A stretch of 64,000 bases of DNA from Synechococcus sp. NB0720_010 (GTDB taxonomy: Bacteria > Cyanobacteriota > Cyanobacteriia > PCC-6307 > Cyanobiaceae): NCBI RefSeq assembly GCF_023078835.1, contig NZ_CP090898.1, positions 1,490,045 through 1,554,044 of the forward strand, in the 5' to 3' direction. Positions 5,429 to 11,153 of this stretch are shown here, piece after piece. The translations under genes and the position numbers were made by a program. The notes under the pieces were generated by a model. That model searched no databases and was not told the DNA's origin. It was given only the letters and a program-made list of their open reading frames with translations. The stretch's first letter is position 1. Every line of letters begins with the position of its first letter.

Positions 5429-6958
5429 ATGCACAATGTTGAAGGAAATCTGAAGCTGGGACTTGCTGTGACGGACGCCACACCCAGCCTCGAGCGTCCA
5501 GACAAGCCGGAAGAGGCCTGCGGCGTGTTTGCGGTGCTGGCCAGTGACCAGCCGGTGGCCAACCTCACCTACTTCGGCCTGTACGCCCTTCAGCATCGCG
5601 GTCAGGAATCGGCGGGCATCGCCGTCTTTGACGCGGAACCCGGCAGTGCCCCCAAGGTGCGGCTCCACAAGGACATGGGCCTGGTGAGCAAGGTGTTCAC
5701 CCCCGAAGTCCTCGAGCGCCTCCCCGGCCAGCTCGCCATCGGCCACAACCGCTATTCCACGACGGGTTCGAGCAAGGCTTGCAACGCCCAGCCGGTGTTG
5801 CTCAACACCCGGCTGGGCCCGATGGCCTTTGCCCACAACGGCAACCTGGTGAACGCCGGCGAACTCCGGACGGCCCTGGCCAGCGACCTGCCCGAAGCTG
5901 AATTCACCTCGACGACTGATTCAGAGCTGATCGCCTTTGCGATTCAGCAGGCCGTGAATGCCGGCAGCGATTGGGACAGTGCCATTCGCTCCGCAGCGGT
6001 CCGTTGCCGAGGCGCCTTCAGCTTGGTGATCGGTACCCCCGAAGGTCTGTTTGCCCTGCGCGACGGCCATGGCATCCGTCCCCTGGTGTTTGGTCACATG
6101 GGCGAGCTCAGCGAAGCCCGCTGGGTGGTGAGCAGCGAGACCTGCGGCCTGGACATCATTGGTTCCAGCTTCGATGGGGACATCGAGCCGGGTGAAATCG
6201 TCCACTTCCGTCTTGGTGAGTCCGAGCCCGTCCGCAGCCGCTGGGTGGAGGAGCCCTCCAAGCTCTGCGTCTTCGAGATGATCTATTTCGCAAGGCCCGA
6301 CAGCCGTTTCTTCGGCGAATCCCTCTACAGCTACCGGGTTCGCATCGGCGAGGTGCTGGCCCGCGAAACTCCGATCGAGGCGGACATCGTCATCGGTGTT
6401 CCTGACTCCGGGATTCCCGCCGCGATTGGCTATTCCCAGTACAGCGGCATCCCCTTCGGTGACGGCCTGATCAAGAACCGCTACGTCGGCCGCACCTTCA
6501 TTCAGCCCACCCAGGCCATGCGCGAAGCGGGGATTCGCGTGAAGCTCAATCCCCTCCCGGATGTGTTGGCCGGAAAGCGCGTGGTGGTGATCGATGACTC
6601 GATCGTCCGCGGCACCACGAGTCGCAAGTTGGTGGCGGCGATCCGCGATGCCGGTGCGACCGAGGTGCACATGCGTATCAGCTCACCGCCGGTGACCCAC
6701 CCCTGCTTCTACGGGATCGACACCGACACCCAGGACCAGCTGATCGCGGCCCGACTGACCCTCGAGGAGATCTCCGCCCACTTGGGCGTGGATTCCCTGG
6801 CCTACCTGAGCAAAGAGGGCATGGTTGAGGCGGCCCACGCCAACGCCGAGAACTTCTGCACCGCCTGCTTCGACGGCGCCTATCCGATTGAGATGGACTC
6901 CTCCGTTAGCGGCAGCAAGCTGATGCTTGAGCCTGCCGGCATCGCCGCAACGGTCTAA
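5429..6958 (+). CDS. purF: Amidophosphoribosyltransferase
   Basis: PurF (509 residues) makes 5-phosphoribosylamine from PRPP and glutamine, the first committed step of purine synthesis. I chose ATG 5429 because AGGAG lies at 5417-5421, seven bases upstream, overlapping the purL stop. The N-terminal nucleophile is Cys31 (EEACGVFAV), so a 30-residue propeptide must be removed, as in Bacillus-type PurF. The PRPP-binding motif VVVIDDSIVRGTT is intact. Cysteines near the C-terminus (ENFCTACFDG) fit the iron-sulfur type. The stop interlocks with the stop of convergent lysC over 4 bases. Confidence 0.96.
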   Translation: MHNVEGNLKLGLAVTDATPSLERPDKPEEACGVFAVLASDQPVANLTYFGLYALQHRGQESAGIAVFDAEPGSAPKVRLHKDMGLVSKVFTPEVLERLPGQLAIGHNRYSTTGSSKACNAQPVLLNTRLGPMAFAHNGNLVNAGELRTALASDLPEAEFTSTTDSELIAFAIQQAVNAGSDWDSAIRSAAVRCRGAFSLVIGTPEGLFALRDGHGIRPLVFGHMGELSEARWVVSSETCGLDIIGSSFDGDIEPGEIVHFRLGESEPVRSRWVEEPSKLCVFEMIYFARPDSRFFGESLYSYRVRIGEVLARETPIEADIVIGVPDSGIPAAIGYSQYSGIPFGDGLIKNRYVGRTFIQPTQAMREAGIRVKLNPLPDVLAGKRVVVIDDSIVRGTTSRKLVAAIRDAGATEVHMRISSPPVTHPCFYGIDTDTQDQLIAARLTLEEISAHLGVDSLAYLSKEGMVEAAHANAENFCTACFDGAYPIEMDSSVSGSKLMLEPAGIAATV

Positions 6959-8778
6959 ACCGGCGCCTCGGTTCCCTGGGCCTGGTGCTTCACCTCGCCC
7001 CCGAGGCCGAAGGCGTCGTGGATCACCTGAAGGGCTTTGATGCCCTCCCCTTCGGGAACCACACAGCTGGTGCGGATCTCGCTGGTGGCGATCATCTCGA
7101 TGTTGATCTGTGCATCCGCCAGAGCACGGAACATCCGGCCGGCCGTCCCAGCGGTACAGGGCATGCCCGCACCGACGGCACTGATCCGAGCGATCGCCAT
7201 TCCTTCCTCAAAGCTGGCGCCGGGCCACTGATTCAGCAGCGGTTGCAGGGCGGTTCGCGCCCGGCTCAGGTCCTCGCGCTTGAGGCAGAAGCCCATGTCG
7301 CGGCTGAGTTGTTCCCCTGAGCCATGGGTGCGCTCGGACTGCACGATGGCGTCCAGGCTCACCCCGGCGTCCGCAAGAGCACGGCAAACCGCCGCGGCCG
7401 TTCCCGGCTTATCGGGAATGCGCCGCACGGCGACTTGGGCTTGGTCCCGATCAAGGGCCACACCGCGCACCTCCGGTTGACCCGCTCCAGAGGGGGCCGG
7501 GTTGAGATGCAGTTGCCGCTCGTTCAGTTCAAAGCAGTGGGCTGCAGCCTGCAGGGCCTTGTTGCCCTGATGTCCCGCGACCAGGCAGCTCACCTTGACT
7601 TCGCTGGTGGCGATCAGGCGCAGGTTGATGCCCCCTTTGGCCAGGGTGTCGAACAGGCGTGCTGCCACCCCCGGACGGCCCATGATTCCGGCGCCAGCGA
7701 TGCTGAGCTTGGCCATCCCGGCCTGGGTGCTGAGGGTCGCCCCGGCCGCGGCGGCATCCATGGCGTCCAAGACGTTTTGGCAGACCGCCTTGGCCTCCTC
7801 CAGTTGCGCCTCAGCCACGGTGAAGGCGATGTCGTTGCTGCTGCCCTCGTGGGTGGACTGCACGATCAGATCCACGCTCAAGCCCTCATTGGAGAGCGCT
7901 TCAAACAGTTGAGCCGCGACCCCTGGGCGATCGGGGACATGGGAGAGGGCGAGCACGGCCTGATCCGTCTCCAGCTCCGCGCCGTCGACAGGCTTGCCCA
8001 GCTCCAGGCCCTCACCGCTACCGCGATGGCTGGTGCTGTCGCTGGTGAGCAACGTTCCCGGTGCATCGCTCCAACTGGAGCGCACCACCAAGGGCACGCC
8101 GTAGTTCCGGGCGATCTCGACGGCGCGGGGATGCAAGACAGCGGCCCCCAGGCTCGCCAGCTCCAGCATTTCATCGCAGGTCACCGTCTCCATTAACTGG
8201 GCATCGGCCACCTTGCGGGGATCGGTGGTCAGGACGCCGGGGACATCGGTGTAGATCTCGCAGGCATCGGCTCCAATCGCCGCGGCCAGGGCCACAGCCG
8301 AGGTATCTGAGCCGCCGCGGCCCAGTGTGGTGATCTCGGGAACCCCTGAGAGGCTGTTGCTGGTGCCCTGGAATCCCGCGACCACAACGACGTTTCCGTC
8401 ATCCAGCAGCCGGCGCACCCGCTCGGTTTTGATCTCCAGGATCCGGGCGCGGCCGTGGGCGGATTCGGTCAGGATCCCCACTTGGGGTCCGGTCATCGAG
8501 ACCGCCGGGATCCCCTCGGCATGGAGGGCCATCGAGAGCAGCGCGATCGAGACCTGCTCCCCGGTGGCCAGCAGCATGTCCATCTCCCGCTGGGGCGGGT
8601 TGCTGCTGATGGCCTGGGCGAGCCCGGTGAGTTCATCGGTGGTGTGCCCCATGGCCGAGACCACGATCACCAGATCGTTGCCGTCCTCTTTGCTGGCGGC
8701 AATGCGCTTGGCCACGGCCTGGATGCGCTCCACATCGGCCACGGAGGTGCCGCCGAATTTCTGGACCAGCAGGGCCAT
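6955..8778 (-). CDS. lysC: Aspartate kinase with duplicated ACT regulatory region
   Basis: This 607-residue enzyme phosphorylates aspartate, the first step toward lysine, threonine and methionine. ATG 8778 gives MALLVQKFGGTSVADVERI, the canonical KFGGTS start; a TTG four codons further upstream is less likely. The kinase domain fills about residues 1-250. The rest is an unusually long regulatory part with four ACT-like units (two pairs), the arrangement typical of cyanobacterial aspartate kinases, compared with about 410-450 residues in most bacteria. It ends against purF in a 4-base stop-stop overlap. Confidence 0.95.
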   Translation of the reverse strand: MALLVQKFGGTSVADVERIQAVAKRIAASKEDGNDLVIVVSAMGHTTDELTGLAQAISSNPPQREMDMLLATGEQVSIALLSMALHAEGIPAVSMTGPQVGILTESAHGRARILEIKTERVRRLLDDGNVVVVAGFQGTSNSLSGVPEITTLGRGGSDTSAVALAAAIGADACEIYTDVPGVLTTDPRKVADAQLMETVTCDEMLELASLGAAVLHPRAVEIARNYGVPLVVRSSWSDAPGTLLTSDSTSHRGSGEGLELGKPVDGAELETDQAVLALSHVPDRPGVAAQLFEALSNEGLSVDLIVQSTHEGSSNDIAFTVAEAQLEEAKAVCQNVLDAMDAAAAGATLSTQAGMAKLSIAGAGIMGRPGVAARLFDTLAKGGINLRLIATSEVKVSCLVAGHQGNKALQAAAHCFELNERQLHLNPAPSGAGQPEVRGVALDRDQAQVAVRRIPDKPGTAAAVCRALADAGVSLDAIVQSERTHGSGEQLSRDMGFCLKREDLSRARTALQPLLNQWPGASFEEGMAIARISAVGAGMPCTAGTAGRMFRALADAQINIEMIATSEIRTSCVVPEGEGIKALQVIHDAFGLGGEVKHQAQGTEAPV

Positions 8779-8810
8779 GGGTGGGCGCAAGTGCGTGATC
8801 GACGATTGTC

Positions 8811-9791
8811 CTATGGCGTCAGTAGGAACCCGTCGCGGAAGGCATCACCGGGGTCAGCGCCGCGCTTGAGGTTGGCCTCCACCTGCAGGAGCTGACTGAG
8901 TAGAGCGAGGAAGCGTTCGGGTTTGCGGCCGCGGATCTGTTTGCGCATCACGTAGATCCGCTTGGGATTGCCAATGCCGGCGGCTTTAGCGATGGCATTG
9001 ACATCGTTCTCGCCCTGCTGATCCAGCAGGCTCACCCAAAGCCAACCGCGGATTTGCCCGCAGAGCGTGGCCACGATCCGTAGGGCGGGCTCATTGGCGG
9101 CCAGCAGCACATCCACCAGCGCCACGGCTGCTGCAGGTTGTCCAGCCAGCAGGGCATCACCCACCTGGAGGGCATTGGTGGCCTGGCTGCCGATCAGGGC
9201 GTCCACGGCTTGGGCTGTGATGGCCTGGCCTGCTCCGGCGTAGAGGGAGAGTTTTTCCAGTTCGCTCGCCAGCCTGGCGCTGTCGCTACCGATGGCATCG
9301 CTCAGCGCTTGGGCGGCGTCTGGCTGCAGTTTCAGGCCCAGCTCCTGGGCTGTGCGTTGCACCAACTCCACTTGCCCTGATCCATCCCAGATCGCCGGCA
9401 GTTGGAAGCTGCGCTCCTGGGCTTCACCGCTTTTGACCAGTTTTTGCAGGGCCTTGGTGGTCTTGAGCCGCCCATCCGGTTTGGCGGCGTTGACCAACAC
9501 CAGATGGCACTGCTCCGCCACCAGATTGAGGCTGGTCTCCAGCTGTTCGGCCAGGTCAGCCGGGCACTGATTGCAGAAGGGGCTGCGCTGCAACACGATC
9601 ACCCGATCGCCGCCGCCGAAGGGGGCTGTTCGCGCTTCCTCCAGGGCTTGAGCGGCCTGATTGGCATCGTTGCCGTCCAGACGGCTGAGGTTGATGCTCT
9701 GCCAAGCGGGATCGACCTGGTTCTTGACCAGTGCTTCGACGGCCCTGCTGCGCGCGGCTTCGTCGTCGCCCCAGATCAGATGGATCGGCAT
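8811..9791 (-). CDS. holA: DNA polymerase III delta subunit
   Basis: HolA (326 residues) is the clamp-loader subunit that opens the DnaN clamp. ATG 9791 gives MPIHLIWGDDEAARSRAVEA, the usual N-terminus; the frame extends 60 codons upstream but that part is the antisense shadow of the preceding gene. The AAA-like N-terminal domain and the helical collar region (NALQVGDALLAGQPAAAVAL) are recognisable. It overlaps the 3' end of the upstream Phd-PIN gene by 16 bases, so translation is probably coupled. lysC follows 32 bases downstream of its stop. Confidence 0.9.
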   Translation of the reverse strand: MPIHLIWGDDEAARSRAVEALVKNQVDPAWQSINLSRLDGNDANQAAQALEEARTAPFGGGDRVIVLQRSPFCNQCPADLAEQLETSLNLVAEQCHLVLVNAAKPDGRLKTTKALQKLVKSGEAQERSFQLPAIWDGSGQVELVQRTAQELGLKLQPDAAQALSDAIGSDSARLASELEKLSLYAGAGQAITAQAVDALIGSQATNALQVGDALLAGQPAAAVALVDVLLAANEPALRIVATLCGQIRGWLWVSLLDQQGENDVNAIAKAAGIGNPKRIYVMRKQIRGRKPERFLALLSQLLQVEANLKRGADPGDAFRDGFLLTP

Positions 9792-10468
9792 GGCAGCACA
9801 GGGTGCAGTGCAGTTTGCGCCAGATCCCCATCGGCTGTGACCAAGACAGTCACCTCGTTCTGAATTGCTGTGGCCAGTTCGATCGCGTGCTGGAGCTCCA
9901 GTTCCGGTTCCTGTTGCTGGAGACGGCTGGCGGCCAGGGCGAGATCCCCATCGAGCGGCACCTGCCGCCACTGCCTGGGGTTTGCAAAGGCGGCGCCGTA
10001 GCGCAAGGCCAGGGCTTCATCCCCTTGGCAGAGGGCAGTTTCCATGACCTGCATCAGGCTGATGCTGCTGATCACCCCTTGCCAGCTGCCTTGGGCGATG
10101 CCCTGAAGGACGGGCTCCAGTACCCCGCTGGTGTCTGGGTCGTCCAGCAGAAAGGCCACAAGGGCACTGCCGTCTAGCCCGATGCGGCTGCCGGGGCCGA
10201 GTTGTCTGGCTTGAAAGCGAGCTTTTGCACCGGCTGCCCCAGGCGTCCGCTGCTGAGCGCAGCGCTCCTTGGCGCTGCCCTTGAGGCTCAGCAGGTTCTC
10301 CATCGCTTCTTGGCTGCTGGGACCACCCGCCGCGTCCTGCAAGGGGACGATGGCCGCCAGATCCTGGCGGTGGCGTTGGATCACCAGCCGCTCTCCCTTC
10401 GAGGCGCGCACCAGCAGTTCTGGGAAGCGCTGACGGGCTTCCTGTACGCCAAAACGCTCTGCCGACAT
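9776..10468 (-). CDS. Fused Phd/YefM-like antitoxin and PIN-domain protein
   Basis: This 230-residue protein joins two parts normally found as separate toxin-antitoxin proteins. Residues 1-45 read as a Phd/YefM-type domain (MSAERFGVQEARQRFPELLV, then GERLVIQRHRQDLAAIVPL). Residues 95-230 read as a PIN nuclease domain: IGLDGSALVAFL with Asp99, METAL with Glu143, DGD at 173-175, and LVTADGDL with Asp213. Where many PIN proteins have an Asp (DALxxATA), this one has His194-Ala-Ile-Glu197, so the active site may be altered. The middle (46-94) looks like a low-complexity linker. It overlaps holA by 16 bases and lies back to back with cobH. A solitary regulatory protein rather than a true toxin is possible. 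Confidence 0.72.
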   Translation of the reverse strand: MSAERFGVQEARQRFPELLVRASKGERLVIQRHRQDLAAIVPLQDAAGGPSSQEAMENLLSLKGSAKERCAQQRTPGAAGAKARFQARQLGPGSRIGLDGSALVAFLLDDPDTSGVLEPVLQGIAQGSWQGVISSISLMQVMETALCQGDEALALRYGAAFANPRQWRQVPLDGDLALAASRLQQQEPELELQHAIELATAIQNEVTVLVTADGDLAQTALHPVLPCRSI

Positions 10469-10505
10469 CGCACTGCACAGTCTGTACAGAGTCTGTCAGC
10501 CGGGC

Positions 10506-11153
10506 ATGCTGATCCCCATGGGATTCGACCATCCGATTTTCAGCGAGAGCCTGCGTCTGATCGAATCGGCCCTGCCTGAAGGGGCTCTGGAGGGTTTATC
10601 GGTTCCCGAACGGGATGTGGTGCTGCGCCTGATCCACAGCAGCGGCGACCTCAGCTTGGTTCGGGGGGTGACGTTTTCAGTGCAGGCCTGTGAACTCGGT
10701 CTCGCGGCACTCCGTGCCCAGGCTCCGGTCTTGACGGACACCGCGATGGCGGCGGCGGCGGTGGCTCCGATGGCACGGCGGACCTTTGGCAACGTCGTGC
10801 GCAGCGTGCTCGATTGGGCCCCCGAACGGGCTCCCGAGGGCGGAACGCGAGCGGCGGTGGGGATGCAAGAGGCCTTGTGCGCCCATCCAGGCGCGGTCGT
10901 CTTGATTGGCAGTGCACCAACGGCCTTGGAGCTGCTGTTGGAGCAGGTCCGCACCGCCCAGGTGGCAGCGCCTGCCTTAGTGATTGGCATGCCCGTCGGC
11001 TTCGTGGGCGTGGCGGAGAGCAAGCGCCATCTCGCCGCCAGCGACTTAGCTCAGATCCGTCTCGACGGCAGCCGCGGCGGTGCTGGCTTGGTGGGTGCGG
11101 CGCTGAACGCCCTGTTGCGCCGGGCTTGGTTGGATCAGGCGGCGTCCGCTTGA
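10506..11153 (+). CDS. cobH: Precorrin-8X methylmutase
   Basis: CobH/CbiC (215 residues) moves a methyl group from C-11 to C-12 of the corrin ring in cobalamin synthesis. The N-terminal DHPIFSESL, the probable catalytic histidine in [11 protein letters not shown], and the later [13 protein letters not shown] are all family hallmarks. ATG 10506 and ATG 10518 are both possible starts; neither has a clear Shine-Dalgarno site. The 3' end overlaps convergent mutS by 19 bases. It stands apart from other cobalamin genes in this window, so the pathway must be completed elsewhere. Confidence 0.92.

Follow-up and report, generated by a model that had tools for sequence, protein, structure and literature searches.

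The closest described counterparts of the gene reported here are the type II toxin-antitoxin modules of the Phd/YefM-VapC kind, whose antitoxin and toxin are two separable proteins and which occupy mobile, varying genomic places. In excerpts of Makarova et al., Phd and PIN are recorded as neighbouring genes. Among antitoxins of this fold, Escherichia coli YefM, the partner of YoeB, binds palindromes that share a TGTACA core and lie 12 bp apart from centre to centre, and its residues R10 and R31 are required for DNA binding (excerpts of PMC4803016 and PMC7730913).

Fusions of a toxin with an antitoxin are already known. EzeT, a zeta toxin-antitoxin fusion of E. coli, holds both in one chain, and cells carrying EzeT without its first 83 residues behave unlike cells carrying the full protein, which is why the toxin domain of EzeT is regarded as active (excerpts of PMC4826407 and PMC4803016). 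The EzeT toxin is a kinase, and the protein has no Phd half. In Ralstonia eutropha, a truncated fusion joins Phd to RelE rather than to a PIN domain; its activities are thought to be lost, and whether it is a dead end or a functional system is left open (excerpts of PMC4826407, citing Loris and Garcia-Pino, 2014). A cyanobacterial case is Slr1999 of Synechocystis PCC 6803, which fuses HicA and HicB, members of other families, and for which the excerpted text of PMC4963859 reports no fused homolog in any other organism. Among the open-licence PubMed Central matches listed, none describes a Phd-PIN fusion, a conserved fused lineage with an operator or such a gene beside holA, and the shift of PIN acids set out below may have been described elsewhere.

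The taming of chromosomal toxin-antitoxin modules for use by the cell is often discussed and rarely seen stepwise. At one place in related genomes we observe an empty site, a two-gene pair, a fused gene under selection and decayed remnants. The locus offers a setting in which it can be tested whether the repressor function of an antitoxin can survive the loss of its toxin and pass to a neighbouring replication gene.

Results and discussion

A Phd-PIN fusion between cbiC and holA

The window, a 64,000-nucleotide stretch of the genome of Synechococcus sp. NB0720_010, contains the following genes around the fusion:

6955..8790, minus strand: lysC-like aspartokinase reading frame after holA (AA_kinase and ACT domains)
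8811..9791, minus strand: holA, DNA polymerase III delta subunit (NCBIfam TIGR01128, 186 bits; Pfam)
9776..10468, minus strand: fused Phd-PIN gene, 230 amino acids (open reading frame, Pfam, AlphaFold2)
9776..9791, minus strand: 16-base overlap of the fused gene with holA (holA ATG at 9791, stop of the fused gene ending at 9776)
10506..11153, plus strand: cbiC, divergent neighbour (Pfam PF02570, 173.8 bits)

The lysC-like frame is drawn from its first start codon, and the true start may lie slightly downstream. In the window, the start codons of the fused gene and cbiC are 37 bases apart. A sequence-only reading of this DNA had proposed a single 230-residue chain with a Phd-like N-terminus, a linker and a PIN domain that overlaps holA by 16 bases; the overlap is exactly as proposed, and Pfam profiles for both halves, together with AlphaFold2 and Foldseek, agree with that architecture and its order of Phd/YefM half, linker and PIN half. 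The AlphaFold2 model of the whole protein is confident (pLDDT 86.7, pTM 0.72). A PDB sequence search gave no useful match, PADLOC assigned no family, and a scan of genome contigs returned one weak partial locus.

The gene is resident at one chromosomal place

Among 400 genomes of the window's family, 58 gave matches and 342 gave none. The gene adjoins holA in 51 of the 58, which amounts to 52 loci; the remaining seven, with Phd-alone or weak PIN matches elsewhere, are excluded from the 51. One draft genome, G011, contributes two loci, which are differing copies of the whole locus on two contigs (L063 and L064) and perhaps derive from two strains binned together. Divergent cbiC lies upstream at 51 of the 52 loci, the contig ending at the other. 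At 44 of the 52, lysC lies no more than 160 bases beyond holA in the same orientation; it is farther than 160 bases from holA at four and was not seen at four, two of which are cases where the sequence ends.

With holA starts set by alignment across loci, all 46 loci that hold the fusion in a single frame either overlap holA or stop no more than 52 bases from it. The 16-base overlap is found at three of them (the window and two close relatives), and of the others 23 overlap by one base, one abuts and 19 leave gaps of 2-52 bases. The search for the same fusion and the same holA neighbour in relatives, suggested when the gene was first noted, thus succeeded widely.

From the genomes without a match, we sampled 30 of the 342 by hand; 26 gave holA and four did not. 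In all 26, which lack an intact gene, cbiC, holA and lysC stand in unchanged order. Twenty-four show no trace of the fused gene, and two hold remnants: a short Phd piece with two PIN pieces in G007, and the PIN end in G006. Intervals between cbiC and holA measure 144-507 bases without the gene versus 588-1481 bases with it.

The fused protein had no match in phage records, plasmids or IMG/VR. Among the matches listed for 388 genomes of the class, where at most seven candidates per genome were scored, no single-frame Phd-PIN fusion was found outside the window's family. Because its place beside holA is fixed, no listed fusion lies outside the family and no phage, plasmid or IMG/VR match was found, the fused gene is a resident chromosomal gene of one group, whose members, to judge by their genome sizes and gene content and by the sequence-only reading, appear to be picocyanobacteria. 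The 52 of 52 loci beside holA, with the lack of matches in those three collections, lead us to reject a mobile module; the changing genomic places of type II modules are not a property of this gene. The gene is also dispensable, and holA can do without it, since many relatives lack it and it has decayed in several lineages.

A Phd-VapC operon beside holA fused once

Of the 52 loci, 46 carry the gene in a single frame and three carry it as two genes; the other three are broken, through a frameshift in G188 and deletions in G044 and G177, the last of which has no Phd half. Thus, at most loci the two separable proteins of type II modules are replaced by one. The loci with two genes (G212, G162 and G222) occupy the same place between cbiC and holA and look like Phd-VapC operons of the ordinary kind, with the four PIN acids intact in all three. 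Their antitoxins are 78-86 amino acids long and end in an LxGSGxGCW element followed by a further tail, and their toxins are 147-149 amino acids long. The antitoxin stop overlaps the toxin start by one base in G222 and G162.

We built a PIN tree with 14 of 26 other cyanobacterial VapC proteins as the outgroup; in it, 45 fused proteins group in one clade (100/98) that excludes the two-gene forms. The tree and the acid counts below use 45 of the 46 single-frame loci, leaving out the three broken loci and G182, which lacks a usual start codon before the Phd half. This topology indicates that one Phd-VapC operon beside holA fused once, and it rules out that the two-gene forms are fused genes that split again. 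Descent from a toxin-antitoxin pair, suspected from the sequence alone, is borne out by this tree and by the intact two-gene forms at the same locus. An assembly frameshift that joins two genes, which would have made the fusion an artefact, is ruled out by the 46 single-frame loci and by purifying selection.

The fused protein shares with Phd/YefM-VapC modules both domains, their order, a TGTACA-type dyad and the LxGSGxxxW element, and two-gene forms exist at its own locus. It differs from them in being one chain that has lost the canonical PIN acids, in lacking the antitoxin tail after the element and in its fixed place beside holA.

Two loci deserve separate mention. In G182 (L046) the frame is open through both halves with no ATG, GTG or TTG before the Phd half, which may reflect a rare start codon or a lost start. 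The two-gene copy of G222 (L055:393-1093) is nested among fused relatives in a tree built from holA, cbiC and lysC; this tree is quick and has long branches, such that the placement of single rows is unsure. From the position of G222 it seems that recombination at the cbiC-holA site exchanged a fused allele for an intact one in this genome.

The Phd half and the linker retain antitoxin features

10331..10450, minus strand: Phd/YefM antitoxin half, residues 7-46 (Pfam PF02604; Foldseek of residues 1-94)
10259..10294, minus strand: LxxLxGSGxxxW linker element, antitoxin-derived, residues 59-70 (conserved in fused proteins, ends two-gene antitoxins)

An N-terminal domain of the Phd/YefM type was recognized both by profile and by fold. 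The window copy matches Pfam PhdYeFM_antitox with E 9.9e-6 and 25.7 bits, under the cut-off of 29.8; the two fused relatives tested both score above it, at 36.7 and 36.3 bits. Modelled alone by AlphaFold2, residues 1-94 give a weak model (pLDDT 66.5), whose top Foldseek matches are the Phd/YefM-type antitoxins VapB46, YefM and P1 Phd at E 0.009 and up, with no match in the PDB at E 0.001 or better. These matches support a Phd fold and do not prove it. Structural matching, which the sequence-only reading had called for, was convincing for the PIN half, with VapC/PIN matches of the full model (see below), and weak for the Phd half modelled alone.

Arg12 and Arg32 are invariant in the 45 fused proteins and align with YefM R10 and R31, as judged by eye against the YefM of the window's genome. 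In the linker element, Leu62 and Gly64 are present in 45 of 45 fused proteins, Ser65 in 44 and Trp70 in 41, Trp70 having been lost in the window copy and three relatives. A similar ending is found, by a weak profile, in antitoxin-like reading frames beside the VapC gene at six of 26 other loci. Residues 51-70 of the linker reach a pLDDT of 83-85 when modelled with the PIN half versus 55-64 without it, although the underlying alignments differ; the difference is as expected if these residues pack on the PIN half.

An operator-like dyad accompanies the DNA-binding half

10474..10488, unstranded: operator-like dyad, TGTACAGACTGTGCA on the minus strand (pattern TGTACA-N3-TGTACA, upstream of the fused gene)

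Like Phd/YefM antitoxin genes, the fused gene has a TGTACA dyad in its own upstream region. The dyad matches at 10 or more of 12 positions at 49 of the 52 gene-bearing loci versus 0 of the 26 loci without an intact gene. The shortfalls are G008 (9 of 12), G124 (8, both half-sites carrying an identical change) and G177 (7, the Phd half being lost), and neither of the remnant genomes G006 and G007 has the dyad. At 45 of the 52 gene-bearing loci, none of 200 base shuffles of the interval scored as well. The predicted operator is thus associated with the DNA-binding half across genomes, an association that is partly due to shared ancestry and that must be read with the shorter length of the gene-less intervals in mind.

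Changes in the two half-sites tend to be paired. At the core positions we counted 257 matches versus a mean of 243.5 and a maximum of 253 in 2000 shuffles, which ignore kinship among the loci, and at the five flanking positions there is no pairing excess (259 of 2000 shuffles as high). This comparison used 42 of the 52 sites; G008, G177 and eight identical or nearly identical sites were dropped by eye, and G124 was kept. The second half-site of the window dyad is imperfect.

With E. coli YefM-YoeB the fused gene shares palindromes with a TGTACA core and the two arginines of the Phd fold (excerpts of PMC4803016 and PMC7730913). The systems differ in spacing, since the palindrome centres of the fused-gene dyad are 9 bp apart rather than 12, and in the toxin, which is a PIN domain rather than YoeB and is fused. 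At 12 of the 26 distant loci with two-gene relatives, the same dyad was sought upstream and found at none (0 of 12), and consensus matching revealed no sigma-70-like promoter near the dyad.

In the cyanobacterial LexA box, four bases separate GTAC from GTWC. The dyads have five bases between GTAC and GTAC, one more than this box, and do not fit it. A genome-wide regulon was rejected. Using a pattern built from the window site and its relatives, a scan of the window's genome found one match with zero mismatches and five other places with one mismatch; at up to two mismatches there were 97 matches on both strands versus 55 for a reversed control, and weak further sites are possible.

The PIN half has lost canonical acids and gained others

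9809..10177, minus strand: PIN half, residues 98-220 (Pfam PF01850; Foldseek VapC)
10172..10174, minus strand: Asp99, canonical PIN acid 1 (alignment with intact relatives)
10049..10051, minus strand: Gln140, PIN acid 2 lost (alignment with intact relatives)
10040..10042, minus strand: Glu143, acid displaced by +3 from position 2 (acidic in 38 of 45 fused proteins, in 0 of 26 relatives)
9887..9889, minus strand: His194, PIN acid 3 lost (alignment with intact relatives)
9878..9880, minus strand: Glu197, acid displaced by +3 from position 3 (acidic in all 45 fused proteins, in 0 of 26 relatives)
9830..9832, minus strand: Asp213, canonical PIN acid 4 (alignment with intact relatives)

The PIN fold of VapC proteins is evident from both the profile and the model. 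Against Pfam PIN the window copy scores 20.2 bits (E 9.3e-4), under the cut-off of 23.6, and the two fused relatives tested are above it at 25.1 and 24.1 bits. The best PDB matches of the full model are VapC/PIN proteins, including 5x3t_B (E 7.4e-5) and 7by2_B (TMt 0.83).

All four canonical acids are present in three of three two-gene forms and in 26 of 26 other cyanobacterial VapC proteins, and in none of the 45 fused proteins, whose PIN halves align to these intact relatives without indels. The window copy has D99 and D213, but Q140 and H194. Across the fused set, acid 1 is present in 45 of 45 (42 Asp, 3 Glu), acid 2 is kept in four and acid 3 in none, with 11 different residues at that place. 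Acid 4 is kept in 22 of 45, or in 43 of 45 if the preceding residue is allowed. The sequence-only reading had listed Asp99, Glu143 and Asp213 as kept; the two aspartates are indeed canonical, but Glu143 lies three residues past the canonical second position, which is occupied by Gln140. It had correctly placed His194 where an Asp is usual, which is the site of the canonical third acid, and had missed Glu197.

Both +3 places lack an acid in the 26 VapC relatives and the three two-gene forms. The Glu197 place holds 43 Glu and 2 Asp. At position 2, an acid occurs at the canonical or the +3 place in 40 of 45 fused proteins. The pair G015 and G004 has Glu at the canonical place and Gln at +3, G012 and G023 have an acid at each, and five proteins have none at either. 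Canonical acids 2 and 3 were lost after the fusion. The canonical PIN centre is gone, but not through free drift, because the new acidic position (+3 of position 3) is strictly kept. The shifted acids may make up a new centre, anchor the linker or have some other role. The five proteins without a position 2 acid speak against catalysis in those five, and we regard the PIN half as probably non-catalytic.

Both halves are under purifying selection

In 16 close pairs chosen by hand, dN/dS of the Phd half ranges from 0 to 0.19 (median about 0.09; undefined in one pair) and that of the PIN half from 0.09 to 0.64 (median 0.20). Values for the linker, 0.05-1.14, are the highest of the three parts. 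Both the Phd and the PIN half stay below 1 in every pair with a defined value. Purifying selection is strongest on the Phd half, and the PIN half is also constrained.

A candidate autorepressor of the holA operon

These features make it fairly probable that the fused gene is a domesticated toxin-antitoxin module whose product autorepresses the holA operon to which it belongs and whose PIN half is neutralised in cis and probably non-catalytic. In an ancestor of these picocyanobacteria, a type II Phd-VapC operon would have inserted between cbiC and holA and come to head a unit that runs into holA and usually lysC, after which its antitoxin and toxin genes fused once into a single reading frame. 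The fused chain would have retained the DNA-binding Phd half and autorepression through the upstream TGTACA-N3-TGTACA dyad. As a dimer, the Phd half is predicted to bind this operator and repress the unit formed by its own gene and holA, which would share a transcript. In the window divergent cbiC may also be controlled, its start codon being only 37 bases away. The LxGSGxxxW element of the linker would pack on the PIN half and neutralise it in cis, and the PIN half, its canonical site lost, would probably have a structural or dimerisation role and so help to shape operator binding. With the former toxin in one chain with the antitoxin, at a constant ratio and neutralised in cis, such a switch would sense the level or breakdown of a single protein, not a toxin-antitoxin ratio.

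Several observations sit poorly with the autorepressor. The constraint on the PIN half and the kept shifted acids seem to exceed the needs of a mere scaffold. The predicted operator differs in spacing from that of YefM, is missing from distant relatives and has no sigma-70-like promoter nearby. The gene is absent from 342 of 400 genomes and is decaying in several lineages, lysC is not always close, the dyads of G008 and G124 are poor and one half-site of the window dyad is imperfect.

A first alternative is a single-chain, self-neutralised nuclease, in which acids 2 and 3 have moved to E143 and E197, still bind metal and are freed by a cut in the linker or by undocking. This possibility, raised when the gene was first noted, now needs a non-canonical active site, given that 0 of 45 proteins keep all four acids. 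It agrees with +3 acids in 38 and 45 of 45 fused proteins versus 0 of 26 relatives, gained without indels, with an acid at one or other position 2 place in 40 of 45 (the G015/G004 swap included), with Asp or Glu at acid 1 throughout and with the conserved antitoxin-derived linker element. However, both position 2 places lack an acid in five of 45, acid 4 is missing in two of 45 even when the preceding residue is allowed, and the acids of G012 and G023 at both position 2 places indicate that the exchange is not strict. We consider such a nuclease unlikely. Less likely again is the fuller proposal that the active site was rebuilt after fusion through E143 and E197, one helical turn away, giving a new metal-site geometry checked by the antitoxin in cis within the holA unit. 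If catalytic, this conserved displacement of two acids along one helical turn would be an unusual route to a changed PIN active site.

We give still less credence to an anti-addiction or decoy role, in which the protein would bind the operator or the toxin of intact Phd-VapC operons that arrive at the same place, and so block them. The intact allele of G222, nested among fused relatives, hints that such operons do arrive, and both the operator-binding and toxin-docking elements are retained, but the docking element should already be filled in cis, and in the window's genome the operator pattern was not found beyond the fused locus at zero mismatches. A non-catalytic PIN domain might instead bind RNA or complete another PIN enzyme, as SMG5 does for SMG6, and an inactive PIN that completes another has this precedent (excerpts of PMC12923823). 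Two other PIN proteins score above the Pfam cut-off in the window's genome, but there is no sign of a partner, both adjoin an antitoxin-like small reading frame of their own (judged by eye) and the strongest constraint falls on the DNA-binding half, which together make this role highly improbable. The earlier idea of a domesticated RNA-binding regulator holds in part: a domesticated regulator fits best, but one that binds DNA rather than RNA, given that constraint is strongest on the DNA-binding half, which is accompanied by a dyad operator. Lowest of all we place a functionless, decaying remnant. Decay is real in five other genomes (remnants in G006 and G007, a frameshift in G188, deletions in G177 and G044), but the frame is kept at 46 of 52 loci, dN/dS is well under 1 in both halves of intact copies and the operator is kept; the suggested decayed pair does not fit these intact copies.

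Other toxin-antitoxin-like genes in these genomes

A YefM-YoeB-like pair lies elsewhere in the window's genome (L131:1477-2020, about C1:728473). Its antitoxin scores 79.5 bits to PF02604, and its YoeB-like toxin was named by eye; the pair provides a natural control for the fused protein. The two other PIN genes over the Pfam cut-off (L133:1471-2092 and L134:1220-1917) each adjoin a small antitoxin-like reading frame, one of which resembles AbrB by eye. In one relative, G083 (L058:1627-2374), an AbrB-like and a VapC-like reading frame, also named by eye, stand just before mutS and near the locus of the fused gene.
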